A DNA stretch of 21,891 nt from a virus. Of this stretch, positions 1,680 through 12,238 are shown piece by piece. The notes under the pieces are model-generated. The model saw nothing but the letters and a program-made list of their open reading frames with translations, was not told the DNA's origin and ran no database searches. Both the position numbers and the translations under genes were made by a program. Each line of letters starts with the position of its first letter. The first letter of the stretch is position 1. The stretch lies in IMG/VR virus record IMGVR_UViG_3300025652_000644, positions 1 through 21,891 of that record. The stretch is one strand, 5' to 3'.

Positions 1680-1722
1680 TGACAATAGCCCCTTACTCTA
1701 TAACTTATAAGGCTAATGTCAC
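1680..1722. repeat. inverted-repeat element, copy 1 of 3
   Basis: The left arm TGACAATAG and right arm CTAATGTCAC are complementary apart from one A-A mismatch. Inside them, CCCCTTA and TAAGG can extend the stem. The same arms recur at 2737-2782 and 9443-9486 with different centres. It lies in the divergent intergenic region. It could be an operator, a transcript hairpin or a small mobile palindrome; the sequence does not decide between these. Confidence 0.7.
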
Positions 1723-1958: not shown

Positions 1959-2001
1959 TTACAAAAATAATACGCTTGTCGTTAGATAATATAACTGTAA
2001 C
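1959..2001 (+). promoter_or_regulatory. bipartite promoter-like motif, copy 1
   Basis: Left box TTACAAAAATAATACG (1959-1974), 10 variable bases, right box GATAATATAACTGTAAC (1985-2001). The start codon of the small membrane protein follows 14 bases later. GAGAAC sits just upstream (1952-1957) and GTATAGCA lies at 1928-1935; both features are shared with other copies. The right box contains a -10-like TAATAT. Promoter function is inferred from repeated placement ahead of genes. Confidence 0.7.
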
Positions 2002-2015
2002 CAAATAACTATAAC

Positions 2016-2129
2016 ATGAAACATTTAAATCTTAATTCAGTAATCAAATTAATTTCTTTATCTACTATTCTATTCTTATCAATAATAGTTTTAGTTGATA
2101 CATTACAAAATGGTTCTAACCTTTTATAG
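2016..2129 (+). CDS. small membrane protein, 37 aa
   Basis: A short frame of 37 residues (MKHLNLNSVIKLISLSTILF at the start) directly follows promoter motif copy 1 and stops just before copy 2. Residues about 9-27 form one uninterrupted hydrophobic stretch long enough to cross a membrane, with Lys and His before it and a short polar tail after it, so an N-in single-pass protein is likely. It is the first rightward gene. Its own promoter and tight fit between two motif copies support it as real. Many phages express such mini-proteins early to alter the host envelope or block superinfection, but nothing here shows the function. Confidence 0.6.
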   Translation: MKHLNLNSVIKLISLSTILFLSIIVLVDTLQNGSNLL

Positions 2130-2138
2130 TGGAGAACA

Positions 2139-2181
2139 TTACAAAGAAAATACGAGCATCAATAGATAATATAACTGTAAC
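2139..2181 (+). promoter_or_regulatory. bipartite promoter-like motif, copy 2
   Basis: Left box TTACAAAGAAAATACG (2139-2154), spacer of exactly 10 bases, right box GATAATATAACTGTAAC (2165-2181). It carries GAGAAC immediately upstream like copies 1 and 4. The 75-residue gene starts 28 bases downstream. Confidence 0.7.
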
Positions 2182-2209
2182 TAAATAATAATAATTAAAT
2201 ATAATAAAC

Positions 2210-2437
2210 ATGGAAACATTAAAAACCAAAAGATTCGTAGTAAGAAAATCATTAGTAGGTAAGAATCAAATCATTGAAGTAACATTCAAATCTGGAAAAC
2301 AAGTAACATACAATCATGATAAGGTATATGATATAATGAAAGACAAACTAGAAACTATGAATTGTTTCATCAAATATAAGTCTTATACTTCATCAACAAG
2401 TATTCCAGTAATCTTAAGGGACAAAGAAATAGTCTAG
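2210..2437 (+). CDS. unknown 75-aa phage protein, paralogue A
   Basis: This 75-residue soluble protein begins METLKTKRFVVRKSLVGKNQ and shares roughly three quarters of its residues with the 75-residue product at 2997-3224. Both have a basic N-terminus, a beta-like VGKNQIIEVTFK segment and a conserved KYKSYTSST...PVILRDK C-terminus. I do not recognise the family, and there are no catalytic signatures. It is the first gene of the transcript expected from motif copy 2 and is followed by two mini-genes. Conservation of both copies suggests selection for dosage or for two related targets. A host-interaction role would fit an early phage locus but is not shown. Confidence 0.75.
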   Translation: METLKTKRFVVRKSLVGKNQIIEVTFKSGKQVTYNHDKVYDIMKDKLETMNCFIKYKSYTSSTSIPVILRDKEIV

Positions 2438-2476
2438 TCCCTTTCAAACAAATCATTAACACTTAAATATATAAAC

Positions 2477-2596
2477 ATGTCAAATTACTTTACAACAATC
2501 GAAAAGATATCGTGGAACTTATACGATAAATCATACACTAAATTATCATCAGAAGAAAAGTCTAACGTAACAGAAGTATATTATGATTTCTACTAA
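2477..2596 (+). CDS. unknown 39-aa mini-protein
   Basis: A 39-residue frame starts MSNYFTTIEKISWNLYDKSY and ends TEVYYDFY. It is rich in Tyr, Ser and Glu with no membrane segment. It starts behind an AAATATATAAAC leader typical of this genome, and its last 14 bases overlap the start of the next gene. Position, spacing and overlap argue that it is translated, but I recognise no family and claim no function. Confidence 0.5.
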   Translation: MSNYFTTIEKISWNLYDKSYTKLSSEEKSNVTEVYYDFY

Positions 2597-2732
2597 ACCA
2601 ACACATCGATCAGAGGTACATACAAGACCTGACGGAACTAAGTACGTTAAATGTATTCGTATAAACAAAGAAGAAATGCCTTTCACTGACGAACAAAAAG
2701 GCATACAAAGATGGCTTGAACAATACAAGTAA
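2583..2732 (+). CDS. unknown 49-aa protein, paralogue of 3949-4101
   Basis: This 49-residue product shares a clear pattern with the 50-residue product at 3949-4101: SEV, then T-(R/K)-x-DGTKYV, then R-(I/V)-N, then (F/M)T(D/E)-x-QKGI-x-RWL-x-(Q/K)YK. Conservation of this pattern between two copies about 1.4 kb apart shows that both are real genes. The start overlaps the end of the 39-residue gene in another frame. The protein is small, polar and probably folded around the C-terminal Trp-containing helix. Family and function are unknown. The stop is followed within 5 bases by inverted-repeat copy 2. Confidence 0.7.
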   Translation: MISTKPTHRSEVHTRPDGTKYVKCIRINKEEMPFTDEQKGIQRWLEQYK

Positions 2733-2736
2733 AACA

Positions 2737-2782
2737 GTGACAATAGCCCCTTACTAGATCTTAATTAACACCCTAATGTCAC
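2737..2782. repeat. inverted-repeat element, copy 2 of 3
   Basis: Arms GTGACAATAG (2737-2746) and CTAATGTCAC (2773-2782) match the other two copies. The left-centre CCCCTTACT equals copy 1, while the right-centre ACACC does not pair with it. The arms are therefore better conserved than the full stem, which argues for a protein-binding site or mobile palindrome over a simple RNA hairpin. It lies between the end of a mini-gene and tandem promoter motifs. Confidence 0.7.
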
Positions 2783-2838
2783 ACTTTTCTTTACGTAGCT
2801 TTTCGCTATGTATAGCATAGTGTATAGCACTTCGCTTT

Positions 2839-2881
2839 TTACAAAGAAATTACGCTTCGCTTAAGATAATATTTAATAGAC
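2839..2881 (+). promoter_or_regulatory. bipartite promoter-like motif, copy 3 (degenerate)
   Basis: Left box TTACAAAGAAATTACG (2839-2854), a 10-base spacer and a right box that starts GATAATATT but lacks the terminal TGTAAC. Two GTATAGCA octamers precede it (2810-2817, 2822-2829). No gene starts right after it; copy 4 follows about 80 bases later. It may be a decayed duplicate or a weaker tandem promoter. Confidence 0.5.
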
Positions 2882-2917
2882 ACTCTCGTGTATAGCACCT
2901 CGCTCTGCTCGAGAACG

Positions 2918-2960
2918 TTACAAAAATAATACGTACTTGTTATGATAATATAAATGTAAC
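2918..2960 (+). promoter_or_regulatory. bipartite promoter-like motif, copy 4
   Basis: Left box TTACAAAAATAATACG (2918-2933), 10-base spacer, right box GATAATATAAATGTAAC (2944-2960). It has GAGAAC just upstream and GTATAGCA at 2890-2897. This copy shows the full outer inverted repeat GTTACA ... TGTAAC. The paralogue-B gene starts 36 bases downstream. Confidence 0.75.
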
Positions 2961-2996
2961 CAAAATAAATAAATAATAACTTAAATAAATAATAAA

Positions 2997-3224
2997 ATGG
3001 AAAACTTAAAATCAAAACGCTTCGTAATCAGAAAATCATTAGTAGGTAAAAACCAAATAATCGAAGTCACTTTTAAAAACGGTAAACAAGTAAGTTACAA
3101 CCACGACCTCGCTTTCGAGATAATGAAAGACAAATTAGAGTCAATGGAGTGCTTCAAAAAGTATAAATCTTACACTTCTTCAACCTCACTACCAGTAATT
3201 TTAAGAGATAAAGTAATTATTTAA
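2997..3224 (+). CDS. unknown 75-aa phage protein, paralogue B
   Basis: This 75-residue protein (MENLKSKRFVIRKSLVGKNQ at the start) is the closest relative of the product at 2210-2437. Differences are mostly conservative (Val/Ile, Thr/Ser, Asp/Glu), and the C-terminal KYKSYTSST and VILRDK blocks are identical. Codon choice differs more than the protein, so the duplication is not recent and the protein sequence is under selection. It has its own promoter motif (copy 4) and is followed by a possible terminator hairpin at 3244-3266, so it may be expressed alone. Function unknown. Confidence 0.75.
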   Translation: MENLKSKRFVIRKSLVGKNQIIEVTFKNGKQVSYNHDLAFEIMKDKLESMECFKKYKSYTSSTSLPVILRDKVII

Positions 3225-3243
3225 TCAATTAAGTGTTGAGAGA

Positions 3244-3266
3244 GATGGTGTAGTACCTCACCCATC
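3244..3266 (+). terminator. possible terminator hairpin
   Basis: GATGGTG (3244-3250) pairs with CACCCATC (3259-3266) if one C is bulged, around an 8-base loop, and is followed by ATTTCTTT. It lies 20 bases after the paralogue-B stop. The stem is modest and the T-tract imperfect, so this is a weak call. The rest of the 3225-3436 gap holds only an 18-codon frame (3327-3383) that I do not annotate. Confidence 0.35.
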
Positions 3267-3373
3267 ATTTCTTTCAACAAATAAAACAACACCTCTGACG
3301 GAGTTTAAAATACTACTCTTACATCAATGTATATAAATAACTTACGGTGTATTAGAATCAGTGAAAACACTGT

Positions 3374-3416
3374 CTACAAATAAAATACGTCTACTCGTAG
3401 ATAATATAAATGTAAA
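3374..3416 (+). promoter_or_regulatory. bipartite promoter-like motif, copy 5
   Basis: Left box CTACAAATAAAATACG (3374-3389), 10-base spacer, right box GATAATATAAATGTAAA (3400-3416). The Cys-rich mini-protein starts 20 bases downstream. Confidence 0.65.
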
Positions 3417-3436
3417 AACTAATAAATATAAATAAT

Positions 3437-3532
3437 ATGATGAGTAATTGTTGTGGCGCCGAGCCAAGTTACCTAAGTGACGAACTATGTGGAGATTGCC
3501 TAGAGTGGGCAGAATTTGATAATGAAGAATAA
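3437..3532 (+). CDS. 31-aa Cys-rich mini-protein (possible zinc knuckle)
   Basis: A 31-residue frame reads MMSNCCGAEPSYLSDELCGD, then CLEWAEFDNEE. The arrangement CCGAE...C-G-D-C is a compact four-cysteine pattern that could bind one zinc ion. Tiny SNCCGA-type proteins are common in phage genomes. A second start (3440) would remove one Met. It directly follows promoter motif copy 5 and precedes the 67-residue gene by 15 bases. The acidic C-terminus argues against plain DNA binding; a protein-protein role is possible. Confidence 0.55.
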   Translation: MMSNCCGAEPSYLSDELCGDCLEWAEFDNEE

Positions 3533-3547
3533 ATAAAATATAATATT

Positions 3548-3751
3548 ATGAGTAATACAAAAAATAAAACTTATTTATGGAATGAAGAAACCATAAACTA
3601 CTTTCAATTCACAAGTTGTTACATATCAGGTGAAGAGCTTTATGAGAAAATACAAGAGTTCGTAGAAACTGACTGTGTAATAGAAGATGGCGAGACTGAA
3701 GAAGATTTAGTAAACGACCTTTACAAACAAATTACGTCCGCTCACGGATAA
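3548..3751 (+). CDS. unknown 67-aa acidic protein
   Basis: A 67-residue, strongly acidic protein; the second half is full of Glu and Asp (QEFVETDCVIEDGETEEDLV). No motif or membrane segment is visible. Its last codons (LYKQITSAHG, stop) lie within promoter motif copy 6: the coding sequence supplies the left box and the stop TAA is part of GATAATATA. It probably belongs with the Cys-rich mini-protein in the transcript from copy 5. Small acidic phage proteins sometimes mimic DNA or inhibit host enzymes, but nothing specific supports that here. Confidence 0.65.
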   Translation: MSNTKNKTYLWNEETINYFQFTSCYISGEELYEKIQEFVETDCVIEDGETEEDLVNDLYKQITSAHG

Positions 3752-3763
3752 TATAAATGTAAC
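3721..3763 (+). promoter_or_regulatory. bipartite promoter-like motif, copy 6
   Basis: Left box TTACAAACAAATTACG (3721-3736), 10-base spacer, right box GATAATATAAATGTAAC (3747-3763). The left part is coding sequence of the preceding gene, whose stop falls at 3749-3751. The next start codon is 16 bases downstream. Confidence 0.7.
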
Positions 3764-3779
3764 AAATAAAATATATAAT

Positions 3780-3947
3780 ATGAATAGAGAATTTTTTCAC
3801 ACAGTACTAATTACAGTAACAAACCTAACTATCAAAGCGGTTATGGTATCACTAACAAGTTTAGCGGCAACAGGTATTGCTGTATTAATATTCAAACTAG
3901 TAACTAATCCAAACTCTTTCAATAGTGTTGGCGGCTTTATCAAGTAA
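3780..3947 (+). CDS. small membrane protein, 55 aa
   Basis: A 55-residue product starts MNREFFHTVLITVTNLTIKA. It carries a hydrophobic region from about residue 20 to 40 (VMVSLTSLAATGIAVLIFKL) suited to one transmembrane helix, possibly preceded by a shorter amphipathic helix. It begins 16 bases after promoter motif copy 6 and ends with TAA-T-ATG, joining it to the next gene. The longer reverse-strand frame across this region is not supported, because the plus strand carries a promoter and two adjoining genes. Function unknown; an inner-membrane protein is the only inference. Confidence 0.6.
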   Translation: MNREFFHTVLITVTNLTIKAVMVSLTSLAATGIAVLIFKLVTNPNSFNSVGGFIK

Positions 3948-3948
3948 T

Positions 3949-4101
3949 ATGAGTACAGAGTATAAATCAGAGGTGAAAACCAAGGCAGATGGTACAAAGT
4001 ATGTACAAGTAACACGAGTGAATGTAATAGAACCTGAGATGACCGAGCAACAAAAAGGTATCGCTAGATGGTTAACAAAGTATAAAACTAATAATGTATA
4101 A
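3949..4101 (+). CDS. unknown 50-aa protein, paralogue of 2583-2732
   Basis: This 50-residue product (MSTEYKSEVKTKADGTKYVQ at the start) matches the 49-residue protein at 2583-2732 through the SEV, DGTKYV, RVN and QKGIARWL-x-KYK blocks. The start follows the previous stop as TAA-T-ATG, and its own stop joins the next gene the same way, so three genes are likely translated as a coupled set from motif copy 6. The pairing of a membrane mini-protein with this paralogue is not repeated at the other locus. Function unknown. Confidence 0.7.
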   Translation: MSTEYKSEVKTKADGTKYVQVTRVNVIEPEMTEQQKGIARWLTKYKTNNV

Positions 4102-4102
4102 T

Positions 4103-4276
4103 ATGAAATTAGACAAGAATGAATTAAGCTTAGTGATACTAGGTATGGAAGCGTTAATGGAGCAATTAAAAGATGATGATATTAGAGATGTATTAGACGA
4201 GAAAGAAAACAGAAGAAGATACTATGAGTGTTGGGATATAGCGAACAAAGCAAGAACTTTACTATCACAAAAATAA
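4103..4276 (+). CDS. unknown 57-aa helical protein
   Basis: The product starts MKLDKNELSLVILGMEALME and is helical and charged, with EKENRRRYYECWDIANKART near the C-terminus. An in-frame ATG nine bases upstream (4094) would overlap the previous gene. I prefer 4103 because it gives the TAA-T-ATG junction seen at several other places. The last codons (SQK, stop) overlap promoter motif copy 7. A fold similar to small helical phage proteins of unknown function is likely; no specific family is recognised. Confidence 0.65.
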   Translation: MKLDKNELSLVILGMEALMEQLKDDDIRDVLDEKENRRRYYECWDIANKARTLLSQK

Positions 4277-4307
4277 TACGTTACGAGTAAGATAATATAA
4301 ATGTAAT
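4265..4307 (+). promoter_or_regulatory. bipartite promoter-like motif, copy 7
   Basis: Left box TCACAAAAATAATACG (4265-4280), 10-base spacer, right box GATAATATAAATGTAAT (4291-4307). The stop codon of the upstream gene lies inside the left box. The next start codon is 15 bases downstream. Confidence 0.7.
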
Positions 4308-4322
4308 TAAAATATATATAAC

Positions 4323-4499
4323 ATGCAAGCATTAAAATTTAAAAGTAAAACAAGATTAATATTCAACGGTATATTATACAGAGGCTTTAGTATCAGTGAG
4401 ATACCTAGCGCTTTCGGCTTCATCTACGACGAGAACAATGATAAAGATGGTATAACAGAGTGGTTTAATTATAAAGGTTTAACTTGGATAGCGGAATAA
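4323..4499 (+). CDS. unknown 58-aa protein
   Basis: A 58-residue frame starts MQALKFKSKTRLIFNGILYR and ends FNYKGLTWIAE. It is mixed beta in character, with a central acidic loop (YDENNDKDG) that could be a calcium-like or simply flexible segment. It sits 15 bases after promoter motif copy 7 and joins the next gene through TAA-T-ATG. These two features make it a real gene despite its length. No family or function can be assigned. Confidence 0.65.
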   Translation: MQALKFKSKTRLIFNGILYRGFSISEIPSAFGFIYDENNDKDGITEWFNYKGLTWIAE

Positions 4500-4500
4500 T

Positions 4501-4818
4501 ATGAGAAAACTAAAGATAGACGAATTAGATAACGTAAACCTTAATGGTTACAAGGTAGGTGAATTAAATGGTTTTACCTACAAACAAATAAAAAAAGCGT
4601 TAGGTAAACCAACATTCAAACCAAGTTACTCAGGTGATGGCAAGGTACAATACGAGTGGGTTGTGTTATACACTGACAAAGTGTTCAGAGTTTACGACTG
4701 GAAAACCTATGATAAAAAATATACTAAAAAATCACTAACAACATGGAGCGTCGGTGGTAATACAAGCTGTGACTGGTTCTTACAAACGTTAGTAGCTAAA
4801 ATACAAGCAAATGATTAA
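4501..4818 (+). CDS. unknown 105-aa protein
   Basis: A 105-residue soluble protein (MRKLKIDELDNVNLNGYKVG at the start) with a middle part rich in Trp, Tyr and Lys (YEWVVLYTDKVFRVYDWKTY) and a C-terminal SCDWFLQTLVAK helix. The pattern suggests a small alpha/beta domain, but I recognise no family. Its end overlaps the DnaA-like gene by 8 bases, so the two are probably co-translated. The shared transcript with a DnaA-type DNA-binding domain makes a replication-linked or regulatory role possible; this rests on context only. Confidence 0.7.
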   Translation: MRKLKIDELDNVNLNGYKVGELNGFTYKQIKKALGKPTFKPSYSGDGKVQYEWVVLYTDKVFRVYDWKTYDKKYTKKSLTTWSVGGNTSCDWFLQTLVAKIQAND

Positions 4819-5197
4819 CATAAAGCAAATAAGAGACATAGTAGAAGACAATGTAGGTTTTAACCTTGAAATTAAAGGTAGAAAACGTTATCACTCAGAT
4901 GCTCGAGCATTATTTTATAAGCTGTGTCGAGAATATACTAACGACACTTTTGAAACTATCGGTAACGAGTTGAATAAGAATTATGCTACCGTTGTTCACG
5001 GCGTACATAAAGTATTTCCAGTGACAGATCAAGTGCTATACACAAGCATCAAACAGCAAATTAATAACTCCGGCAGGCGAGCTATCGGTATCAAAGCATT
5101 AAACACTATAGCTAGCGTAGAGTACGGTGTCAACTGGAGTGATTTAAACGAAGAGCAATTAGAATTTATTCAACAGAATTACTTCTTACAAAAATAA
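4811..5197 (+). CDS. stand-alone DnaA domain IV-like DNA-binding protein
   Basis: This 128-residue protein resembles the C-terminal DNA-binding domain of the initiator DnaA. Residues about 28-68 read ARALFYKLCREYTNDTF, then ETIGNELNKNYATVVHGVHKV. This parallels the DnaA pattern of an Ala-rich helix, an LT-S-ExIGxxFG-type turn and the signature xHTTVxHAxxKI; here DHTTVLHA becomes NYATVVHGV. Neither the AAA+ ATPase domain nor a Walker motif is present, so it can bind DNA but not act as a full initiator. Known phage proteins of this type may bind DnaA boxes, steer host replication or repress genes. Its stop lies inside promoter motif copy 8. The domain call is fairly strong and the role is open. 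Confidence 0.75.
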   Translation: MINIKQIRDIVEDNVGFNLEIKGRKRYHSDARALFYKLCREYTNDTFETIGNELNKNYATVVHGVHKVFPVTDQVLYTSIKQQINNSGRRAIGIKALNTIASVEYGVNWSDLNEEQLEFIQQNYFLQK

Positions 5198-5228
5198 TAC
5201 GATCACTCGTAGATAATATATATGTAAC
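5186..5228 (+). promoter_or_regulatory. bipartite promoter-like motif, copy 8
   Basis: Left box TTACAAAAATAATACG (5186-5201), 10-base spacer, right box GATAATATATATGTAAC (5212-5228). The left box encodes the last residues (LQK) and stop of the DnaA-like gene. The next start codon is 13 bases downstream. Confidence 0.75.
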
Positions 5229-5241
5229 AAAAATAAAAAAT

Positions 5242-5514
5242 ATGAAACTAATTAAAATCACAAGCAGAGGAAGTTTACACTTCGAACTATCAGACGGCAG
5301 AATAGGTACAGTATCTGAATCAGGTTATGTACGAGTAAATACTAAGCATGACAATTTCTATCACAGAAAACGTTTATTCTATCAAATCAACAAGAAAACA
5401 CCGTATGCAAATGAAAGAAATCCAGAGTGGATAAACTTCAAACGCGAAACAATTCCAAACCACGTCGATAGAATAAAATTCCTTTACGCATTTAACCAAA
5501 AAAACTGTCAATAA
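5242..5514 (+). CDS. unknown 90-aa basic protein
   Basis: A 90-residue, basic protein (MKLIKITSRGSLHFELSDGR at the start). The first 35 residues look like a small beta-barrel or SH3-like strand set (HFELSDGRIGTVSESGYVRV); the rest is rich in Tyr, Asn, Lys and Arg. This could be a small nucleic-acid-binding protein, but no family is recognised. It is the first gene after promoter motif copy 8 and joins the next gene through TAA-T-ATG. Confidence 0.65.
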   Translation: MKLIKITSRGSLHFELSDGRIGTVSESGYVRVNTKHDNFYHRKRLFYQINKKTPYANERNPEWINFKRETIPNHVDRIKFLYAFNQKNCQ

Positions 5515-5515
5515 T

Positions 5516-5806
5516 ATGAAAGACTTAAATCAAATAGAAAAAAGACTAAAAAAATCTGCTGAAGAAGAACTAGAGCTAGTAGTAACTAGCTTCGCAAGAT
5601 CATTAGAATTTTTAGCAGACAGGTACGGTGGTGGTAGATGGTTCGATTTATCTGAAGACATAGTAAGTCACTCACATCACTCATCGTCTTGTATGAATCA
5701 TTATAGATTTAAAGAAGCTTTATTGAAATCACTAAAAAAGTCTTATGTTGAGGCAATGGTAGCTAAAAAATCAAAAGAATTAATTGAAAAACTAGAGCTA
5801 ATATGA
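5516..5806 (+). CDS. unknown 96-aa protein with His-rich loop
   Basis: A 96-residue, largely helical protein with a charged N-terminal coiled segment (KRLKKSAEEELELVVTSFAR), a central GGGRWFDLSED turn and a striking SHSHHSSSCMNHYRF loop that could bind a metal. The C-terminal third is a Lys/Glu-rich helix. The stop overlaps the next start as ATGA. I do not recognise a family. The His/Cys loop is the only feature suggesting a cofactor, and nothing identifies a reaction. Confidence 0.65.
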   Translation: MKDLNQIEKRLKKSAEEELELVVTSFARSLEFLADRYGGGRWFDLSEDIVSHSHHSSSCMNHYRFKEALLKSLKKSYVEAMVAKKSKELIEKLELI

Positions 5807-5979
5807 AACTAACTTGGGAAGAAATTAAAGATATTGCTAACCGTTTAGACGAGATAATAGGTGACAACTTTCACGACGCTATGTGGAACACTATAAGCGA
5901 AAGAGATATTGACTATGACTTTGAAGTAAGTGACGAAGATATACTATCAATTAAAGAACAATTAAAAAGAATATTATAA
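5803..5979 (+). CDS. unknown 58-aa acidic protein
   Basis: A 58-residue acidic product (MKLTWEEIKDIANRLDEIIG at the start), probably two or three helices, with a DIDYDFEVSDEDI acidic stretch. Its start overlaps the previous stop (ATGA) and its own stop overlaps the next start (TAATG), so it is locked into a translationally coupled run. That context is the main support. No family or function recognised. Confidence 0.65.
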   Translation: MKLTWEEIKDIANRLDEIIGDNFHDAMWNTISERDIDYDFEVSDEDILSIKEQLKRIL

Positions 5980-6164
5980 TGAAGATGCAATTAAAAGTAA
6001 ACAGAATATCCGCTACGATGTTAGATAAACTATCAGACGTATGCGAATGGGAACTCGATGGTGATCACATCATAGAAGACGGCGACGAGTTTACTGCTAT
6101 ACACACCGAGCTTATGCACCGTGTAATTAGCCGTATGTATCAAGATATAAACTTAGGTAGATAA
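5979..6164 (+). CDS. unknown 61-aa protein
   Basis: A 61-residue product starting MKMQLKVNRISATMLDKLSD, with a WELDGDHIIEDGDEF acidic middle and a HRVISRMYQDI helix at the end. It is the last gene of the coupled run from motif copy 8 before the structured non-coding region at 6165-6406. Start M3 is possible. No family recognised. Confidence 0.6.
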   Translation: MKMQLKVNRISATMLDKLSDVCEWELDGDHIIEDGDEFTAIHTELMHRVISRMYQDINLGR

Positions 6165-6184
6165 ACTAGACTAGTAGCTTAATT

Positions 6185-6385
6185 AGACGCATAGGAACTC
6201 AGGGAGGAGATACGTGTGTACATAAGCAAATTGCTAGTTACTAAGTGAAAGAGCTACGATGAAATACACGTAAACTCGACTAGCTGGTAATACGCTCAGC
6301 GAATAAATAACAATGGTAAATGACTGAGTAAGACGTGTATGGTAATGAAGATAATTTCAAGTGGGTTCGATTCCCACCGCGTCAC
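6185..6385 (+). ncRNA. structured non-coding RNA with tRNA-like T-arm (identity unknown)
   Basis: No reading frame crosses this gap (6165-6406). Its 3' end carries a perfect T-arm: GTGGG (6361-6365), loop TTCGATT, CCCAC (6373-6377). The next seven bases sit where a tRNA acceptor strand would be, and GCGTC (6379-6383) pairs with GACGC (6186-6190) about 190 bases upstream. In exact tRNA register the outer and inner acceptor positions are mismatched. A possible variable arm TGAA/TTCA (6346-6349, 6356-6359) precedes the T-arm. Inside, ATACACGT (6264-6271) pairs with ACGTGTAT (6333-6340), GCTAGT (6233-6238) with ACTAGC (6279-6284), and CTCAG (6295-6299) with CTGAG (6324-6328). TACGTGT (6211-6217) competes for the ACACGTA strand. 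No ordinary D-arm or anticodon arm is evident and no CCA is encoded. Options are an interrupted or decayed tRNA, a reduced tmRNA-like molecule, a tRNA-mimic, or an attachment-site remnant carrying a host tRNA 3' end. Confidence 0.5.
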
Positions 6386-6406
6386 TAACTAATTAAATTA
6401 AAAGTT

Positions 6407-6670
6407 ATGAGTAAAAAAGTAAATGGCTGGAGTAACTATGCCACGTGGAGAATTCACGCAGAAATACTTGGTAATATAGAGTTTGACTATGTAGTTCAGC
6501 CAAGCGAATTAAAAGAAATAGTTGAAGATTGTGTGTTTAGAAACCCAAACACCTGCAGTACACCTTACTTAATAGAAGATTATGCGAGAGCATTTTTAGC
6601 TGAAGTAGAATATATCGAGTTAGCTACAGCGTATAACGAAGATTACAAACAAAATACGATCACCGTATGA
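6407..6670 (+). CDS. conserved phage protein with N-terminal GWSNYATW motif
   Basis: An 87-residue protein starting MSKKVNGWSNYATWRIHAEI. An N-terminal GW-(S/T)-N-(Y/W)-x-TW motif is a recurring signature in small phage and plasmid proteins of unknown function; that is recalled family knowledge, not a search. The middle is acidic (KEIVEDC) and the C-terminal helix contains YARAFLAEVEYIELA. It begins 21 bases after the tRNA-like element without its own promoter motif. Its last codons and TGA stop fall inside promoter motif copy 9. Function unknown. Confidence 0.7.
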   Translation: MSKKVNGWSNYATWRIHAEILGNIEFDYVVQPSELKEIVEDCVFRNPNTCSTPYLIEDYARAFLAEVEYIELATAYNEDYKQNTITV

Positions 6671-6685
6671 TAATATATATGTAAC
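6643..6685 (+). promoter_or_regulatory. bipartite promoter-like motif, copy 9
   Basis: Left box TTACAAACAAAATACG (6643-6658), 10-base spacer, right box GATAATATATATGTAAC (6669-6685). The upstream gene reads through the left box and stops with TGA at 6668-6670, at the edge of the right box. The next start codon is 16 bases downstream. Confidence 0.75.
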
Positions 6686-6701
6686 AAATAAAAATAAAAC
6701 A

Positions 6702-6944
6702 ATGAAAAACTTACTAGAAAGACTAAAGCCAGAAATAAGATTAAAACTAGAATCAAACAGAGATAGATATGCATCAAGCGTTGATAGAATATTTGTAAAA
6801 CTAAGCAGTGAATTATTTTACGATAATCTTTCAATGAGTACTATCGGTAGTATATACACATTCGCTGAAGTAGATTTAATAAAAACAAGTGTATGGGATC
6901 TAAAATACGGCGATAATATTTTAAACTTAGAAGATGATGACTAA
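6702..6944 (+). CDS. unknown 80-aa protein
   Basis: An 80-residue protein starting MKNLLERLKPEIRLKLESNR, helical in its first half and ending in an acidic NLEDDD tail. No recognised motif or membrane segment. Its last codons overlap the start of the next gene by about 11 bases. It is the first gene after promoter motif copy 9 in a three-gene run. Function unknown; the acidic tail could contact a partner protein. Confidence 0.65.
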   Translation: MKNLLERLKPEIRLKLESNRDRYASSVDRIFVKLSSELFYDNLSMSTIGSIYTFAEVDLIKTSVWDLKYGDNILNLEDDD

Positions 6945-7155
6945 ATATGAAATACAAGACAGAGCTAGCAATAAAGCTTTTGCTAAAATCTCGATGTTAA
7001 AAATAGAGATCGATCAACTGTCATACGACATAAAACATAAGTTAACTGGTCCAATCACTATGAACGAACTAGAGTTACTACTATCAAGTACAGAAAAAGA
7101 GCTACAAGTGTGGCAATATATAACAGAATCAATAGAAAAATCAAATAAAGAATAA
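6934..7155 (+). CDS. unknown 73-aa coiled-coil-like protein
   Basis: A 73-residue protein starting MMTKYEIQDRASNKAFAKIS, with long helical, heptad-compatible stretches (SMLKIEIDQLSYDIKHKL; LELLLSSTEKELQVWQYI). Start 6937 is equally possible because two ATGs are adjacent. It overlaps the gene before it and lies 3 bases ahead of another coiled-coil protein, so the pair may form a complex. Function unknown. Confidence 0.65.
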   Translation: MMTKYEIQDRASNKAFAKISMLKIEIDQLSYDIKHKLTGPITMNELELLLSSTEKELQVWQYITESIEKSNKE

Positions 7156-7158
7156 ATT

Positions 7159-7512
7159 ATGGAAGCACAATCATTAGAAAACAGAATTGAAACACTAGAA
7201 ACAATGTTAGCACAAGCTAAACAAGACGCAAATCAAATGACCAAAGAGTTGTCATTAGCAAAAATCGCGCTAGAAAAAATTAATCTACCTAAAATAACCA
7301 AGGAAACTGTAGATGAAATCAGAGAAGCTATTACTCAAACAATTAGCAACTATGACTTCGATAGATCAGACTCTTATTCTTATGAGTTAGAAATTGATTA
7401 TGACAATAGAATACAGTTAGGTAGTATTGAGTTTGACGCAGCTGATGACCTTGCTGAATATATATCAGACAGTGTTGAAGAGCTATTCAATATAATTGAT
7501 GACGAAGAATAG
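7159..7512 (+). CDS. coiled-coil protein of unknown function, 117 aa
   Basis: A 117-residue acidic protein. Residues 3-45 form a clear coiled coil (ENRIETLETMLAQAKQDANQ, continuing with Leu/Ile heptads). A second half carries acidic, Tyr-rich segments (YDFDRSDSYSYELEIDYDN) and an AADDLAEYISDSVEELF helix. It is the last gene of the run from motif copy 9 and stops directly before the left box of copy 10. It could be a scaffold or an inhibitor protein; no family is recognised. Confidence 0.7.
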   Translation: MEAQSLENRIETLETMLAQAKQDANQMTKELSLAKIALEKINLPKITKETVDEIREAITQTISNYDFDRSDSYSYELEIDYDNRIQLGSIEFDAADDLAEYISDSVEELFNIIDDEE

Positions 7513-7555
7513 TTACAAAAATAATACGACACAAGTAAGATAATATATTAAAATA
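7513..7555 (+). promoter_or_regulatory. bipartite promoter-like motif, copy 10
   Basis: Left box TTACAAAAATAATACG (7513-7528), 10-base spacer, right box beginning GATAATATATTAAAA (7539 onward) without the terminal TGTAAC. The preceding TAG stop abuts the left box. The Gp88-like gene starts 7 bases after the motif window ends. Confidence 0.65.
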
Positions 7556-7562
7556 ATACATC

Positions 7563-8168
7563 ATGAATTTACTAACTCAAAACTCAAAATTAAAAAAGAC
7601 ATCTAAATCGCTAGGTGTCCGTGTATTCAACTTTGGTATACCAGCTTATAAGTCCGCATCAGGCAAACTAACATGCCCTATGGCAGATGCTTGTGTCAAA
7701 TTTTGTTATGCTAAAAAAGGTGCATACATCTGGTCTAATGTACAACCAGCATTCGAAAAGCGTTATCAATTATCTAAGACAGATGACTTTGTTAATAAAA
7801 TGTACTCAGAAATAGTTAAAAAGAAACCAGACTATGTAAGGGTACACGACTCTGGCGACTATTATTCTAAAAAATACCTAAACAAATGGATCGACATTGC
7901 CTTATTATTTCCAGAAGTTAAGTTTTACAGCTATACCAATATGGTCGAGATGATGCTATACACGTCTCTACCTAGTAACTTCGACATCATATTCAGCGAT
8001 TCAGGCAAACAAAAGCATATGATAGACAAAATACAACACAGGCATACTAAAATATTCTCTAGCAAGGCAGAATTAGATGACGCAGGCTATATTGATGCAT
8101 CTTCTATCGATCTTATGGCAACAAAATGGTTTAATAAAACAAATAAAGTAGGACTAATTATACACTAA
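7563..8168 (+). CDS. Gp88-like phage protein with Cys cluster
   Basis: A 201-residue protein resembling the phage 'gene product 88' family, from memory of the pattern. Residues about 39-51 read CPMADACVKFCYAKKG, a C-x5-C-x3-C-Y-A cluster. These are followed by an aromatic region (YIWSNVQPAF), then RVHDSGDYYSKKYLNKW at about residues 92-108, then FYSYTN. The Cys spacing and the following strand-helix repeats recall iron-sulfur or radical-SAM-like TIM-barrel proteins, but the canonical C-x3-C-x2-C is not exact and the reaction is unknown. It leads the transcript from motif copy 10 and is followed by two small genes. The family call is good; the function is not. Confidence 0.7.
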   Translation: MNLLTQNSKLKKTSKSLGVRVFNFGIPAYKSASGKLTCPMADACVKFCYAKKGAYIWSNVQPAFEKRYQLSKTDDFVNKMYSEIVKKKPDYVRVHDSGDYYSKKYLNKWIDIALLFPEVKFYSYTNMVEMMLYTSLPSNFDIIFSDSGKQKHMIDKIQHRHTKIFSSKAELDDAGYIDASSIDLMATKWFNKTNKVGLIIH

Positions 8169-8169
8169 T

Positions 8170-8352
8170 ATGGAAAGTATGACAGATAAAATAGAACCAC
8201 TAAGAATAACTATTGAGTTTTACAATAAAAAAATATCTACAGAGGTTGATCATTCTGATCTAACACTTGAAGATTTACATGGTATGTGGATAGAGATAGT
8301 AAGAGCCATGGGATATAATGATAGTACTATAAAAGAACAATACGAAGAATAA
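8170..8352 (+). CDS. unknown 60-aa protein
   Basis: A 60-residue protein starting MESMTDKIEPLRITIEFYNK, with a beta strand followed by a helix (DLTLEDLHGMWIEIVRAMGY) and an acidic end. Small phage proteins with a 'DLT-L-E-L...MGY' helix are common and unassigned. It joins the Gp88-like gene by TAA-T-ATG. Start M4 (8179) is possible. Confidence 0.65.
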   Translation: MESMTDKIEPLRITIEFYNKKISTEVDHSDLTLEDLHGMWIEIVRAMGYNDSTIKEQYEE

Positions 8353-8357
8353 ACAAT

Positions 8358-8564
8358 ATGGAAAATCAAACATTACAACAGTTCAAAGATATGCAAAGAC
8401 GTAATATGCAAGAAGCTATTTCAAAAGGTAGGCTCGTAAATAGTGTAACTGGCTTTGAATGCAGCAGAATGCTTGACCGTAGCGTCATTATGAACGAAAA
8501 CAGAAGAATTAAAAAGAAATGGGCTAAATGGTCTAAAGAATCAGAACTTAAAGAACAAGAATAA
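8358..8564 (+). CDS. unknown 68-aa charged protein
   Basis: A 68-residue, strongly charged helical protein (MENQTLQQFKDMQRRNMQEA at the start, NENRRIKKKWAKWSKESEL near the end). It is the last gene before promoter motif copy 11 and follows the 60-residue gene by 5 bases. A reverse-strand frame of equal length covers the same bases but has no context. Function unknown; the basic C-terminal helix could bind nucleic acid. Confidence 0.6.
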   Translation: MENQTLQQFKDMQRRNMQEAISKGRLVNSVTGFECSRMLDRSVIMNENRRIKKKWAKWSKESELKEQE

Positions 8565-8580
8565 AATAACACGAGCGTGT

Positions 8581-8623
8581 TTACAAAAATAATACGTCCA
8601 GCGAACGATAATATAATAAATCA
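8581..8623 (+). promoter_or_regulatory. bipartite promoter-like motif, copy 11
   Basis: Left box TTACAAAAATAATACG (8581-8596), 10-base spacer, right box beginning GATAATATAATAAAT (8607 onward). It lies between a stop and the KTSC gene start at 8637. Its presence rejects an upstream in-frame ATG at 8577 as the true start. ACACGAGCGTGT just before it (8569-8580) is a small palindrome. Confidence 0.7.
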
Positions 8624-8636
8624 AATAAATATATAT

Positions 8637-8858
8637 ATGAGCACATTAACAGAAACAATTAAAGTAGATTCAGTAGCTATTAGTAAAGCTAAATTTAACA
8701 GGGACAATAGCACATTAACACTAAAGTTTAAAAACTTATCAGAGTATGATTACTTTGAAGTACCATTGCATGTGTTTAATGGCTTACGAGAAGCTAACTC
8801 AAAGGGTAGATATATAAACAAGTATGTAATCGGTGAGTATAAATTCAGAAAATACTAG
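8637..8858 (+). CDS. KTSC-domain protein
   Basis: A 73-residue protein starting MSTLTETIKVDSVAISKAKF. It fits the KTSC family: a strand pair of the type TLTLKFKNLSEYDYFEVPLHVF, an Ala/Glu helix, then SKGRYINKYV. KTSC domains are short, often follow enzymatic domains, and their biochemical role is not firmly known. The frame stays open upstream to 8577, but that start falls before promoter motif copy 11, so 8637 is chosen. The next gene follows the TAG stop by one base. Confidence 0.75.
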   Translation: MSTLTETIKVDSVAISKAKFNRDNSTLTLKFKNLSEYDYFEVPLHVFNGLREANSKGRYINKYVIGEYKFRKY

Positions 8859-8859
8859 T

Positions 8860-9123
8860 ATGACAGACAAAGATATTGAAAAATTAGCTAATAAGATAGC
8901 CGATATAATATTTAAAAGGCAAGAAGAATACGATGCTCAATTTCAAATCGACTTAAATAATCTCGCGGACGAAGGCCTTTTGTACAATTTTCCAACTTTA
9001 GATAAAAAATATTTATTACCAGAGTTAGAAGCAGAGCTAAAATCATGTATTGAAAAAGAGGATTATAAGCAAGCGGCTGTATTAGCAAATAAAATTAAAA
9101 AACTAAAAGATGAAAAAAGTTAA
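8860..9123 (+). CDS. small protein with C-terminal UVR-like motif
   Basis: An 87-residue protein starting MTDKDIEKLANKIADIIFKR. The last about 33 residues (LEAELKSCIEKEDYKQAAVL, then ANKIKKLKDE) match the UVR motif that mediates UvrB-UvrC contact and also occurs in McsA and ClpC-type partners. The N-terminal half is a charged helix followed by NLADEGLLYNFPTLDKKYLL. A phage mini-protein with only this motif could bind UvrB/UvrC or a Clp-type partner, but that is inference. An in-frame ATG at 8833 would overlap the KTSC gene, so 8860 is preferred. It overlaps the next gene by 14 bases. Confidence 0.65.
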   Translation: MTDKDIEKLANKIADIIFKRQEEYDAQFQIDLNNLADEGLLYNFPTLDKKYLLPELEAELKSCIEKEDYKQAAVLANKIKKLKDEKS

Positions 9124-9304
9124 TAAGTTTTTAAAAAAAGTATTCAGAAAAAGATTACATTTGTATAGACTTGAATCCTCAATAAGACGATTGAAGTACG
9201 ATATATTAAACGACGTGTTGTTGGATAATAAAATAAACAAAAACAAAGTTGATCTTTTTTATAAGTACAATAGACGTCTACATTTAATAAGATTATTTTA
9301 TTAA
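9110..9304 (+). CDS. unknown 64-aa very basic protein
   Basis: A 64-residue protein starting MKKVNKFLKKVFRKRLHLYR, dominated by Lys, Arg, Leu and Tyr, with a repeated RLHL motif near both ends (residues 15-18 and 56-59). It overlaps the UVR-motif gene by 14 bases. The composition suggests an amphipathic, membrane-active or nucleic-acid-binding peptide. It could also be a fortuitous frame, as AT-rich DNA favours Lys and Tyr; overlap and position give moderate support. Confidence 0.5.
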   Translation: MKKVNKFLKKVFRKRLHLYRLESSIRRLKYDILNDVLLDNKINKNKVDLFYKYNRRLHLIRLFY

Positions 9305-9333
9305 TAGTTTAATTTTTTTTATAAAAAAAATAT

Positions 9334-9459
9334 ATGGGTAAATCAAGTAAAAGATTCATTGAAATGCAACAAGAATTAATGATGAATCAAGATGAAGTAA
9401 ATGAGTTGCATGTAATATATGAAACATTAACGTACCAGGACTGTGACAATAGGGCCTAG
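9334..9459 (+). CDS. unknown 41-aa mini-protein
   Basis: A 41-residue frame starting MGKSSKRFIEMQQELMMNQD behind an A/T-rich leader. It is helical with a Met/Gln/Glu-rich centre. Its last codons (CDNRA, stop) lie inside inverted-repeat copy 3, so the repeat supplies its C-terminus. This, and the regular leader, suggest it is real. Function unknown. Confidence 0.5.
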   Translation: MGKSSKRFIEMQQELMMNQDEVNELHVIYETLTYQDCDNRA

Positions 9460-9486
9460 TATATACTAATAAGGGGCTAATGTCAC
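9443..9486. repeat. inverted-repeat element, copy 3 of 3
   Basis: Arms GTGACAATAG (9443-9452) and CTAATGTCAC (9477-9486) match the other copies. The right-centre TAAGGGG is close to the reverse complement of the CCCCTTA seen in copies 1 and 2. The element contains the TAG stop of the upstream mini-gene and the ATG start (9480) plus an AAGGGG, SD-like stretch for the next gene. It could control translation of the HTH/sigma genes if it folds in RNA, or transcription if bound by a repressor. Confidence 0.7.
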
Positions 9487-10100
9487 ACGAACGAAATCTT
9501 AAATACTTTATAACACGTAGCATCGTATATAGAAGAGATCCTATCAATGATATACCGACTCAGGTTTATGACTGGGGAAGTTACTATGAAAACGGTACTT
9601 TTGAATGCTATAGTTTGTTTAGAAGTAAAGCTAAGATAACGACGTATAAAAGTTTAAAATGGCATTTGTTGGTTCTTTGGTATTTGAATCCTAATCTCGA
9701 CAAAAATAAATTTGAAAATTTATCAAAATATATCTGTGAAAAGTGCAATAACTTTGTTACATTCGATATAGACGAAAGAGTGTTATTAAATATTGTTAAA
9801 GAAGTAGAAGCATGTGATCTTGATAGACCACCAAAAAACAAGCTTAGAAAAATAATATTTAATGACTATAGCTTACTAACTCCAACAGAAAAAATGTCTA
9901 TAGTAGGCAGCATGATTGGAAAGTCTAAGAAAATAAACAAAGATGATATCTACCAATGTATGATAGATATTAATGACAATGGTAATAAAATTACCATAAG
10001 CAAAATAGCAGATATATTAAAGTGTTCATCAAGAACAATACACCGAGCTATGTGCGACAGCTTAAAGAGAGAAAAGGAAATTCTAAATAACCAACAATGA
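9480..10100 (+). CDS. HTH regulatory protein, upstream of sigma factor
   Basis: A 206-residue protein starting MSHERNLKYFITRSIVYRRD. The N-terminal half is aromatic-rich (VYDWGSYYENGTFECYSLF) with one YICEKCNNF CxxC pair near residue 84. Residues about 166-195 form a helix-turn-helix (ITISKIADILKCSSRTIHRA). The likely DNA-binding C-terminus and overlap with the sigma factor gene (ATGA) suggest a regulator, perhaps of the phage transcription programme. The start codon lies in the right arm of inverted-repeat copy 3, preceded by AAGGGG. The family is not recognised beyond the HTH. Confidence 0.65.
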   Translation: MSHERNLKYFITRSIVYRRDPINDIPTQVYDWGSYYENGTFECYSLFRSKAKITTYKSLKWHLLVLWYLNPNLDKNKFENLSKYICEKCNNFVTFDIDERVLLNIVKEVEACDLDRPPKNKLRKIIFNDYSLLTPTEKMSIVGSMIGKSKKINKDDIYQCMIDINDNGNKITISKIADILKCSSRTIHRAMCDSLKREKEILNNQQ

Positions 10101-10852
10101 AAAAGTATAACATTCAAAATTACATCCGATACAAGGAAGACGTGAAGAGATCTATGCCAGTAGATAAGCCTTACGTAGAGTACACGAGAAATCAATTAAT
10201 AGTTAAATTTATGCCATTAGTAGAAAACTTAGCAAGAAAGTTTCCAACATCACAACAAGCTTCAGGTATACTATCTATAGAAGATCTAATACAGATCGGT
10301 AACGAAGCTTTAATAAGAGCAGTTGACAAACTAGATATTGAAGTACTTAAGGTATCTGAAGATGTTGAGAAAACTTTAAAGTCTTTTCTTAGTAAAAGAA
10401 TTAAAGGAGCTATAAGAAGACGTGTTGATATGCACAGAGGTAATATGAGAATACCAGAGCATAAAATAAATGAGATACGTAGTAATCCTCAAGATAAAAA
10501 AATGGTTGCAATGTTCTTTAATAGTATGTTCTTAAGTGTTGACGAACAAGTTAACAACGATGAAAATGAATCGGCTGTTTTCCAGATCCCAGACGAATCA
10601 GAACCTTACAATATACAGTTATTAAATCTGTATTTAGAAAGCCTTCTTAAAAAGCATCTAAATGACAAAGAATACGAGGTAGTAAGACTATCTTATGGTC
10701 TTGATTGCGATAAGCATTCAGCCAAGGAAATAGCAAGTCTATTAAACATAGAAGGAGTTAGCAGTTATGTACGTGTAAGCGAGATAAAAAAGCAAGCAGT
10801 TAACAAACTAATAGAAAGTGTTGATCACTCTCAAGTGATTGACTTCCTTTAA
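10097..10852 (+). CDS. phage-encoded sigma-70 family RNA polymerase sigma factor
   Basis: A 251-residue protein with sigma-70 family architecture. Region 2 lies around residues 35-75 (LVENLARKFPTSQQASGILS, then IEDLIQIGNEALIRAVDKLD), including the typical DLIQ-G-AL-RA pattern. Basic segments (LSKRIKGAIRRRVD) follow. Region 4 lies near residues 190-240 (LNDKEYEVVRLSYGLDCDKH, then SAKEIASLLNIEGVSSYVRV, SEIKKQAVNKL), a HTH for -35-type recognition. It would direct host RNA polymerase to phage promoters, and the repeated bipartite motif is the obvious candidate target. It is overlapped by the HTH gene upstream (ATGA). No region 1.1 is present. Confidence 0.85.
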   Translation: MKKYNIQNYIRYKEDVKRSMPVDKPYVEYTRNQLIVKFMPLVENLARKFPTSQQASGILSIEDLIQIGNEALIRAVDKLDIEVLKVSEDVEKTLKSFLSKRIKGAIRRRVDMHRGNMRIPEHKINEIRSNPQDKKMVAMFFNSMFLSVDEQVNNDENESAVFQIPDESEPYNIQLLNLYLESLLKKHLNDKEYEVVRLSYGLDCDKHSAKEIASLLNIEGVSSYVRVSEIKKQAVNKLIESVDHSQVIDFL

Positions 10853-10928
10853 GTTAGATGATTAAAATGGCCTAAAAACCATGTAATATATGTGATTATA
10901 ATAATAAGCAAATTTTAAAAACAAACGA

Positions 10929-11453
10929 ATGATATTAAACGAGAAATTAGCTACTATCCAAACAAAGTTTAAATCTAAAAAGTCTAGATTTAACTCCTTC
11001 GGTAAATACAACTTCAGATCCGCCGAAGACATTCTTGAAGCAACAAAGCCCTATTTATTAGAACTAGGAGTCTCAGTCGTTATTAGTGAACAACTAATAT
11101 CAACGGATCCATTTCCAATACTAGAGTCAAAAGCTACAGTAACTGATGGCAAAGATGCTATACACGCGACTGCTATTGTCGGTATTGATCTTGATCAGAA
11201 AGGTATGCAAATGCCACAAAAGTTTGGTAGTGCTTCCAGTTATGGAAAAAAGTACGCTCTTGGAAATTTATTTCTAATTGATGACACGCAGGACAGTGAC
11301 GCTGCTAACAGTCACGGTAAATCAAAAGCAGTAAAGCCTAAGTTAGAAGGCCAAGCATTAGTTAAAGCTAAAGAGTTTATAGCTAAAGGCGGTAGTATCG
11401 ATGCTATTAAAGGTAAATACGATATTCCTCCTGCTGTTTTAAAAACATTGTAG
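10929..11453 (+). CDS. ERF-family single-strand annealing recombinase
   Basis: A 174-residue protein with the hallmarks of the ERF superfamily of phage annealing proteins. Near the N-terminus it has FGKYNFRSAEDILEATKPYL, where ERF proteins carry F-K-Y-(A/V)-(S/T)-xxDI...PLL. At about residues 98-120 it has GSASSYGKKYALGNLFLIDD, then TQDSDA, the G-A-x-SY-x-(R/K)-(R/K)-YAL signature. The C-terminal third (KGGSIDAIKGKYDIPPAVLK) is a small helical tail. ERF proteins form rings that anneal single strands during phage DNA circularisation and recombination. The adjoining exonuclease is the expected partner, only one base away. Confidence 0.9.
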   Translation: MILNEKLATIQTKFKSKKSRFNSFGKYNFRSAEDILEATKPYLLELGVSVVISEQLISTDPFPILESKATVTDGKDAIHATAIVGIDLDQKGMQMPQKFGSASSYGKKYALGNLFLIDDTQDSDAANSHGKSKAVKPKLEGQALVKAKEFIAKGGSIDAIKGKYDIPPAVLKTL

Positions 11454-12194
11454 ATGACAGATAAACAAAAAGTTAAAATTCTAAAAGAACTAGAAGATGA
11501 CGAAAAGTATTATGGAGCGTTCGGTAAGCAGTATTTATCGAACTCTGATATACGAGCTCTGTTAAATGATCCTCTAAATTTTAAAAAACCTATTGTAGGT
11601 AATCCAAACTTAGTAAAAGGTGGTTACTTTCATACGTTAGTTCTAGAACCTGATAAGTTAGAGCAATATAAGATCATTGAGGCAGGTAGTAGAAACACTA
11701 AGCTGTATAAGGATTTATCAGGCGGTGAGATGTGTCTGCTACAGAAAGAAGCTGATGAGCTACAAGTGTTAAGAGATAAACTTATGGCAAACGATGTTTG
11801 CAGAGAGTTGATACAAGATATAGATGTAGAGTATGAAGTACCTGGTTTGATTGAACTTGGTGGTGAAATGTGGAAACTTAAAGCAGATATAAAAAACAAT
11901 ACAGAAAGACTAGTTATCGACTTAAAGACCACGTCAAACATTGATAAGTTTGCTTACTCAGCAAAAGAGTATAACTATGATAGTCAAGCTTACATATACT
12001 CATCGTACTTTAATATGGATATGATATTCATAGCTGTAGACAAGATATCAGGTAAAATAGGTATATTCGATTGTTCTAGTAGTTTTTTAGAACGAGGTAA
12101 AGAGAAAGTAGAAAAAGCTATAGAGCAATATAAGCTGTTCTACAAAGACAAAGACTTTGATCCTGCTCAGTACTTAGTAACAAAGACGTTGTAG
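11454..12194 (+). CDS. PD-(D/E)XK recombination exonuclease (RecE/lambda-exo-like)
   Basis: A 246-residue protein. The N-terminus carries YLSNSDIRALLNDPLNFKKP, like the SNS-x-I-x-x-L-x-x-P-x-x-F/Y pattern of RecE-type nucleases. The active site is visible as MWKLKADI (K-x-D) around residue 145 followed by LVIDLKTT (D-x-K) near 158. YDSQAYIYSSYFN follows, as in the QxxxY motif. Such enzymes resect double-strand ends to give 3' single strands for the annealing protein. It starts directly after the ERF stop (TAG then ATG), and its own stop abuts promoter motif copy 12. Substrate polarity cannot be read from the sequence. Confidence 0.85.
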   Translation: MTDKQKVKILKELEDDEKYYGAFGKQYLSNSDIRALLNDPLNFKKPIVGNPNLVKGGYFHTLVLEPDKLEQYKIIEAGSRNTKLYKDLSGGEMCLLQKEADELQVLRDKLMANDVCRELIQDIDVEYEVPGLIELGGEMWKLKADIKNNTERLVIDLKTTSNIDKFAYSAKEYNYDSQAYIYSSYFNMDMIFIAVDKISGKIGIFDCSSSFLERGKEKVEKAIEQYKLFYKDKDFDPAQYLVTKTL

Positions 12195-12195
12195 T

Positions 12196-12238
12196 TTACA
12201 AAAAAAATACGTTAGAAAAACGATAATATATATAACAA
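12196..12238 (+). promoter_or_regulatory. bipartite promoter-like motif, copy 12
   Basis: Left box TTACAAAAAAAATACG (12196-12211), 10-base spacer, right box beginning GATAATATATATAAC (12222 onward). It starts one base after the exonuclease stop, and the SSB-like gene starts 26 bases after it. It is the last clear copy, so all genes from the SSB to nrdA may depend on it or on read-through. Confidence 0.7.

Follow-up and report, generated by a model that had tools for sequence, protein, structure and literature searches.

Promoters that depend on a phage-encoded sigma factor have long been known, the middle and late promoters of SPO1 being of this kind. The -10 element of sigma-28 promoters (GCCGATAA) also contains GATAA, as does the motif described here, and that motif has neither the -35 element nor the spacing of FliA promoters. 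Phage-sigma promoters are likewise known in phiEco32 and the Salmonella phage 7-11 (PMC4331800). At T4 middle promoters, a MotA box at -35 to -26 replaces the -35 element and the -10 element is kept, with AsiA taking part in this sigma appropriation (PMC2988021). Finally, the sigma-A box of flavobacteria, TAnnTTTG, lies at -12 to -5 (PMC9723704).

The window studied here, i.e., the whole stretch of DNA that was analyzed, is a linear IMG/VR virus record of 21,891 bases and probably a genome fragment. Its genes encode a sigma factor (10097-10852), an ERF annealing protein, an exonuclease and a DnaB-type primase-helicase, while ribonucleotide reductase genes were judged by eye from the ORFs. We consider its twelve 43-bp repeats very likely to be promoters read by the phage sigma factor (probability about 0.85), because of their position, orientation, spacing, start-site signature, conservation and co-occurrence with the sigma gene. 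An earlier note on this DNA had listed the twelve copies, all on the plus strand; every one was re-read at its coordinates and none was found on the minus strand. TACG, the 10-base gap and GATAATAT are invariant in 12/12 copies, as the note had claimed for the spacer, and ACAAA lies at a fixed distance in all of them (12/12). The tail ATGTAAC (or CTGTAAC) is weaker and missing in copies 2839, 7513, 8581, and 12196. For TACG-N10-GATAAT, 0.053 matches are expected per shuffled window on both strands, compared to 12 observed on the plus and 0 on the minus strand. The description of the motif as bipartite needs correction: it comprises three conserved blocks (TTACAAA, AAYACGA, and GATAATAT), and a predicted start-site region accounts for the final 9 bases of the "right box" better than a recognition box does. 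In agreement with the distances given before, a start codon follows eleven copies 7–36 nt past the 17-base right box. Copy 2839 is the exception, the next copy following 79 nt further on, and copies 1959 and 3374 precede short ORFs only (37 aa at 2016 and one at 3437). The putative promoters are:

1959..2001, plus strand: putative promoter copy 1, before a short ORF from 2016; predicted start site 1997
2139..2181, plus strand: putative promoter copy 2, before ORF 2210; predicted start 2177; kept in 51/58 orthologs
2839..2881, plus strand: putative promoter copy 3, degenerate tail, in tandem with copy 4, no start codon directly after; predicted start 2877 doubtful
2918..2960, plus strand: putative promoter copy 4, before ORF 2997 (paralogue of 2210); predicted start 2956
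3374..3416, plus strand: putative promoter copy 5, before a short ORF at 3437; predicted start 3412
3721..3763, plus strand: putative promoter copy 6, before ORF 3780; predicted start 3759; kept in 0/6 orthologs
4265..4307, plus strand: putative promoter copy 7, before ORF 4323; predicted start 4303; kept in 44/54 orthologs
5186..5228, plus strand: putative promoter copy 8, before ORF 5242; predicted start 5224; kept in 6/21 orthologs
6643..6685, plus strand: putative promoter copy 9, before ORF 6702; predicted start 6681; kept in 37/40 orthologs
7513..7555, plus strand: putative promoter copy 10, before ORF 7563 (GP88 family, PF17338); predicted start 7551; kept in 16/32 orthologs
8581..8623, plus strand: putative promoter copy 11, before ORF 8640; predicted start 8619; kept in 31/56 orthologs
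12196..12238, plus strand: putative promoter copy 12, before ORF 12265 (SSB-like small protein); predicted start 12234; kept in 10/115 orthologs

Two of the listed genes, ORFs 2210-2437 and 2997-3224, encode paralogous 75-aa proteins with a putative promoter before each, and this promoter is common in relatives (51/58). Another observation concerns the non-coding stretch at about 6165-6390, at whose end a tRNA-like arm (gtgggttcgattcccaccgcgtca) is found. ARAGORN made no call there, nor did Rfam at gathering threshold; a degenerate or interrupted tRNA is one possibility.

Compared to the described systems, the window resembles phiEco32 and 7-11 (PMC4331800) in having its own sigma-70-family factor and promoters that recur across a gene block and depart from the host consensus. 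However, the 7-11 motifs are short, with a TGATGT core and in some cases TG and TATA flanks (PMC4331800), while three rigidly spaced blocks are found here, and both promoter sequence and sigma lineage are different. With T4 middle promoters the motif shares what may be a phage factor's box in place of the -35 element and a retained -10 element. In contrast, the MotA box TGCTTtA is absent, the spacer after the left block measures exactly 10 where T4 has 12 ± 1, a phage sigma factor is present and the helix-turn-helix (HTH) protein encoded next to it lacks a MotA-like PDB match. Flavobacterial sigma-A promoters are similar in the position of the -10 element and in their A-rich leaders without Shine-Dalgarno sequence, whereas all 12/12 copies carry GATAATAT and not TAnnTTTG. 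The sigma-70 consensus TTGACA-N17-TATAAT is seen neither in the window copies nor in the profile of 540 sites introduced below, and the earlier remark that the left box departs from a canonical -35 holds, as it is unlike E. coli TTGACA. A sigma-54 promoter (GG-N10-GC at -24/-12) was rejected as well, since the site profile does not show it; the 10-base gap is a chance likeness.

The motif is found with the same geometry in well over 100 uncultured phage genomes of IMG/VR. A scan that allowed gaps of 7-13 returned at least 118 stretches, and among the matches listed all but two had a gap of 10. The two others (L046 and L059) lie in records without sigma factor and without HTH protein and are thus probably chance matches. 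Furthermore, 135 sigma-bearing loci were assembled from three sigma-protein scans, a genome scan and the window itself. When gaps of 4-17 were tested on the first 80 loci of this set, 181 matches had a gap of 10 and 0 any other, and all 181 lay on the sigma-coding strand. Strict matches amounted to 93 in 20 of 30 whole records, against 0 for a reversed-pattern control, while most of the other ten carry motif variants according to a matrix adapted per locus. The sigma gene was present in 31/50 records with the pattern, the remainder being mostly fragments. A few long records (about 50 kb and above) contain a single motif match and no sigma gene; these may be fragments or chance matches. Thinned at 97% identity, the group comprises 112 sigma sequences. 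Our searches of cultured phages did not turn up the motif, nor was it present in the 25 kb read of Cellulophaga phage phi10:1, the nearest cultured relative by primase (44%). Record IMGVR_UViG_3300047157_000162 (129,537 bases; L130 and L141) stands apart by two different sigma/HTH blocks about 62 kb from each other, and represents either two joined phage genomes or a real double-length genome.

Promoter function, as the earlier note had proposed it, is supported by a putative start-site signature and by the position kept before orthologous genes. In 540 non-redundant sites, left after removal of copies >80% alike, the base 7 nt after GATAAT is a purine in 98% (A 47%, G 52%, C and T about 1% each), in tail columns that belonged to the fitted matrix and were not fixed by the seeds. 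G reaches only about 5% at the neighboring positions compared to 52% at +1, and a pyrimidine is found at -1 in 73%. This pattern is, as far as sequence can tell, the signature of a fixed transcription start site. Relative to the predicted +1, GATAATAT lies at -12 to -5, AAYACGA at -28 to -22 and TTACAAA at -38 to -32; consequently, the predicted start falls inside the right box and not 5-12 bases beyond it, as had been assumed. We also considered the motif as an inverted repeat (TTACA..TGTAA, 42 bases, dyad-like) and rejected this: relatives keep mainly the purine in the right arm, which is thus better explained as start-site region. A makes up 58% of the final 20 nt of the leaders, and a Shine-Dalgarno-like word occurs in just 12/562 leaders. 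A further observation comes from L264, L268, L274, and L285, where some putative promoter copies overlap the apparent start codon of the next gene (GATAATATG; for example GATAATATGACTGATGAACAA in L264), so that the predicted transcript would begin after that ATG.

The gene context points in the same direction. Within 60 nt of a start codon lie 68-69% of 671 unique sites, compared to 17% of random positions, and 73% of these 671 sites are intergenic. Homologous regions were checked for a missing motif, the outcome that the earlier note regarded as damaging, and the motif survived: orthologs of the motif-bearing window genes often keep it, with exceptions at ORF 3780 (0/6), ORF 5242 (6/21) and ORF 12265 (10/115). 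Among orthologs of neighboring motif-free genes, 0/31, 0/117, 0/121, 0/82, and 0/79 carry it. The sigma gene itself is preceded by the motif in 15/125 relatives. In 19 records, with circular wrap allowed for, 86/86 tabulated sites lie no further than 10.3 kb upstream or 2.1 kb downstream of the sigma start. Because all 86 sites cluster around the sigma gene, and given the ortholog pattern, the predicted regulon would consist of the small-gene block before sigma and at times sigma itself and the SSB-like gene. This clustering, together with co-occurrence, also strengthens the previously suggested link between motif and sigma factor. The proteins and dyads on which the further argument turns are:

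10097..10852, plus strand: phage sigma factor, 251 aa, sigma-70 region 2 and putative region 4, likeliest reader of GATAATAT
9480..10100, plus strand: HTH protein, 206 aa, C-terminal helix-turn-helix, overlapping the sigma gene start
9444..9485, no strand: dyad TGACAATAG..CTAATGTCA, right arm holding the HTH start codon (9480)
1680..1721, no strand: dyad copy at the head of the early region
2738..2781, no strand: dyad copy in the early region

Region 2 of the sigma factor exceeds the Pfam cut-off (PF04542, 27.3 bits; cut-off 24) and is covered by the PDB profile matches. Region 4 scores 20.8 bits with PF04545, below the curated cut-off of 24.1, and appears as a weak second stretch against PDB sigma factors; it is helical in the predicted model. 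The best PDB match of the sigma profile is FliA sigma-28 of Aquifex (1rp3, E 1.6e-10), yet only region 2 aligns well. Foldseek top matches of the predicted model (pLDDT 72) are dominated by sigma subunits with low TM-scores, probably due to differently placed domains. The window sigma protein had no match in 50,697 phage records at E 1e-5, and with the sigma protein of locus L160 as query, the best matches included only distant phage sigma factors of 24-30% identity. A sigma gene 72% identical occurs on a contig within an Aliivibrio MAG (L200; JAAGZR010000268.1, 1-9870), which looks like a phage contig binned with a bacterium.

The HTH gene lies directly before sigma in most relatives. Both proteins occur in the same 31/50 pattern records, and none of the 50 holds HTH without sigma. 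The HTH protein had no match in cultured phages and no convincing one in the PDB, a fold search gave nothing, and 0/117 relatives have the motif ahead of its gene. Its candidate targets are TTACAAA, the 42-44 bp dyads, or both. The three window dyads follow TGACAATAG-N24..26-CTAATGTCA; relatives have conserved dyads at corresponding places, and the one over the HTH start codon (TGTGACAATAGC..GCTAATGTCACA, 46-48 bases) is kept in nearly all that bear HTH. The dyad pattern gave 153 forward matches compared to 2 in reversed sequence, with more copies near the early-region head. No dyads were found in HTH-less loci and none at the HTH start in the clade with ACGTA at -35. The dyads probably serve as an operator, or else they may form an RNA hairpin that masks the start codon.

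Taken together, we envision that the repeats would drive a block of presumably early or middle phage genes. The RNA polymerase of the host, equipped with the phage sigma factor that we infer to bind GATAATAT, would melt this -10 element, and RNA would begin at the purine 7 nt after GATAAT. The resulting leaders would be short, A-rich and without Shine-Dalgarno sequence. Upstream contacts would be made at TTACAAA and AAYACGA, and the chance that the HTH protein contacts TTACAAA, replacing or assisting sigma region 4, is a little short of even.

The earlier note had assumed recognition by one protein, and a switch of the left block speaks against this. In L121, L137, L138, and L240, TCGAA replaces TTACAAA at -35, and HTH is missing despite enough sequence upstream of sigma. 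An out-of-sample search for the TCGAA pattern, with L120 as positive control, found three more sigma-bearing contigs and HTH in none of them, so that 7/7 sigma-bearing TCGAA contigs lack HTH; on a quick sigma tree these loci form one clade, and the link between HTH loss and TCGAA thus counts as one evolutionary event. Five loci without detected HTH (L247, L248, L246, L227, and L254) were excluded as losses, their contigs being cut close before sigma. No clade-specific residue was found in sigma region 4.2 of the TCGAA clade, whose recognition helix is unchanged, and a -35 block that switches over an unchanged region 4.2 argues for a second reader. One might therefore favor a division of labor in which sigma reads the -10 element only (perhaps also the -26 block) and its HTH partner the -35 block; we hold this tentatively, at odds somewhat below even. 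Of comparable standing, and likewise below an even chance, is the possibility that sigma alone reads all three blocks, the HTH protein acting only as a repressor through the dyads, both those of the early region and the one that covers its start codon. Sigma has a putative region 4, the normal -35 reader, the motif is kept without HTH, and the dyads are absent from HTH-less loci and cover the HTH start like those of an autoregulator. Against this model, two -35 switches, to TCGAA and ACGTA, came without clade-specific changes in region 4.2. In the ACGTA clade, where region 4.2 is ordinary and the dyad at the HTH start is lost, the HTH residues S194G and K196V, just after the recognition helix, are unique (0/120 elsewhere). 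However, the sigma factor of this clade too has many unique residues outside region 4.2, and the ACGTA case is thus weak. The HTH-less clade still has the AATAC block, and L127 and L153 have lost this block though they do encode HTH; hence HTH does not simply read both blocks. Variants with TTGCAAAC occur along with normal HTH and dyad. With whole-protein distances, partial Mantel tests showed no tie between HTH and the -35 block, and neither Mantel tests nor residue-by-residue association assigned the blocks, as signals tracked clades and primase/ERF controls were as high. Swap pairs (similar HTH with diverged sigma, or the reverse) gave mixed results.

Both of these models keep the phage sigma factor as reader of the -10 element. 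It is improbable that host sigma-A reads it instead, with a phage HTH activator on the whole left block and the phage sigma reserved for other (late) promoters. The left block at the location of the MotA box (-35 to -26; PMC2988021) and the adjacent HTH and sigma genes, present in the same records, would suit such an activator, but GATAATAT misfits the flavobacterial sigma-A box at the same location (PMC9723704), the motif persists in the HTH-less clade, HTH occurs without sigma in 0/50 records, and sites gather in the early block near the sigma gene and not at late genes. Many copies in one orientation could also be expected of replication iterons, packaging sites or a mobile repeat; that the repeats are any of these and not promoters is very improbable indeed, given that copies precede start codons and track specific orthologous genes, and that the 10-base spacers are unconserved, the flanks unrelated and a purine present at one fixed position.

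The hosts of the promoter-bearing phages are probably marine flavobacteria, since phages of Cellulophaga, Tenacibaculum, Flavobacterium, and Polaribacter are among those with the closest cultured relatives of the primase and of the SSB-like protein, and since the leaders agree with translation starts in Bacteroidota. Aliivibrio was rejected as host: the sole genome-contig match, a 9.9-kb contig in a MAG, was judged unreliable. A limited literature search found no description of this motif or phage group. The specificity, the layout and the protein pair appear to be new, while phage sigma regulons and -35-replacing activators (T4 MotA) are already known; the "new promoter class" of the earlier note thus holds for the sequence and not for phage-sigma promoters as such.

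For this large group of uncultured phages, the motif provides a readable regulatory code from which predictions of early genes and start sites can be made for phage genomes from metagenomes. The natural -35 switches could serve directly to test which block each protein reads. If sigma and its HTH partner do divide the reading, this would be a new layout for sigma-dependent promoters, and loss or change of the partner would rewrite the -35 element across the whole regulon while leaving sigma untouched.
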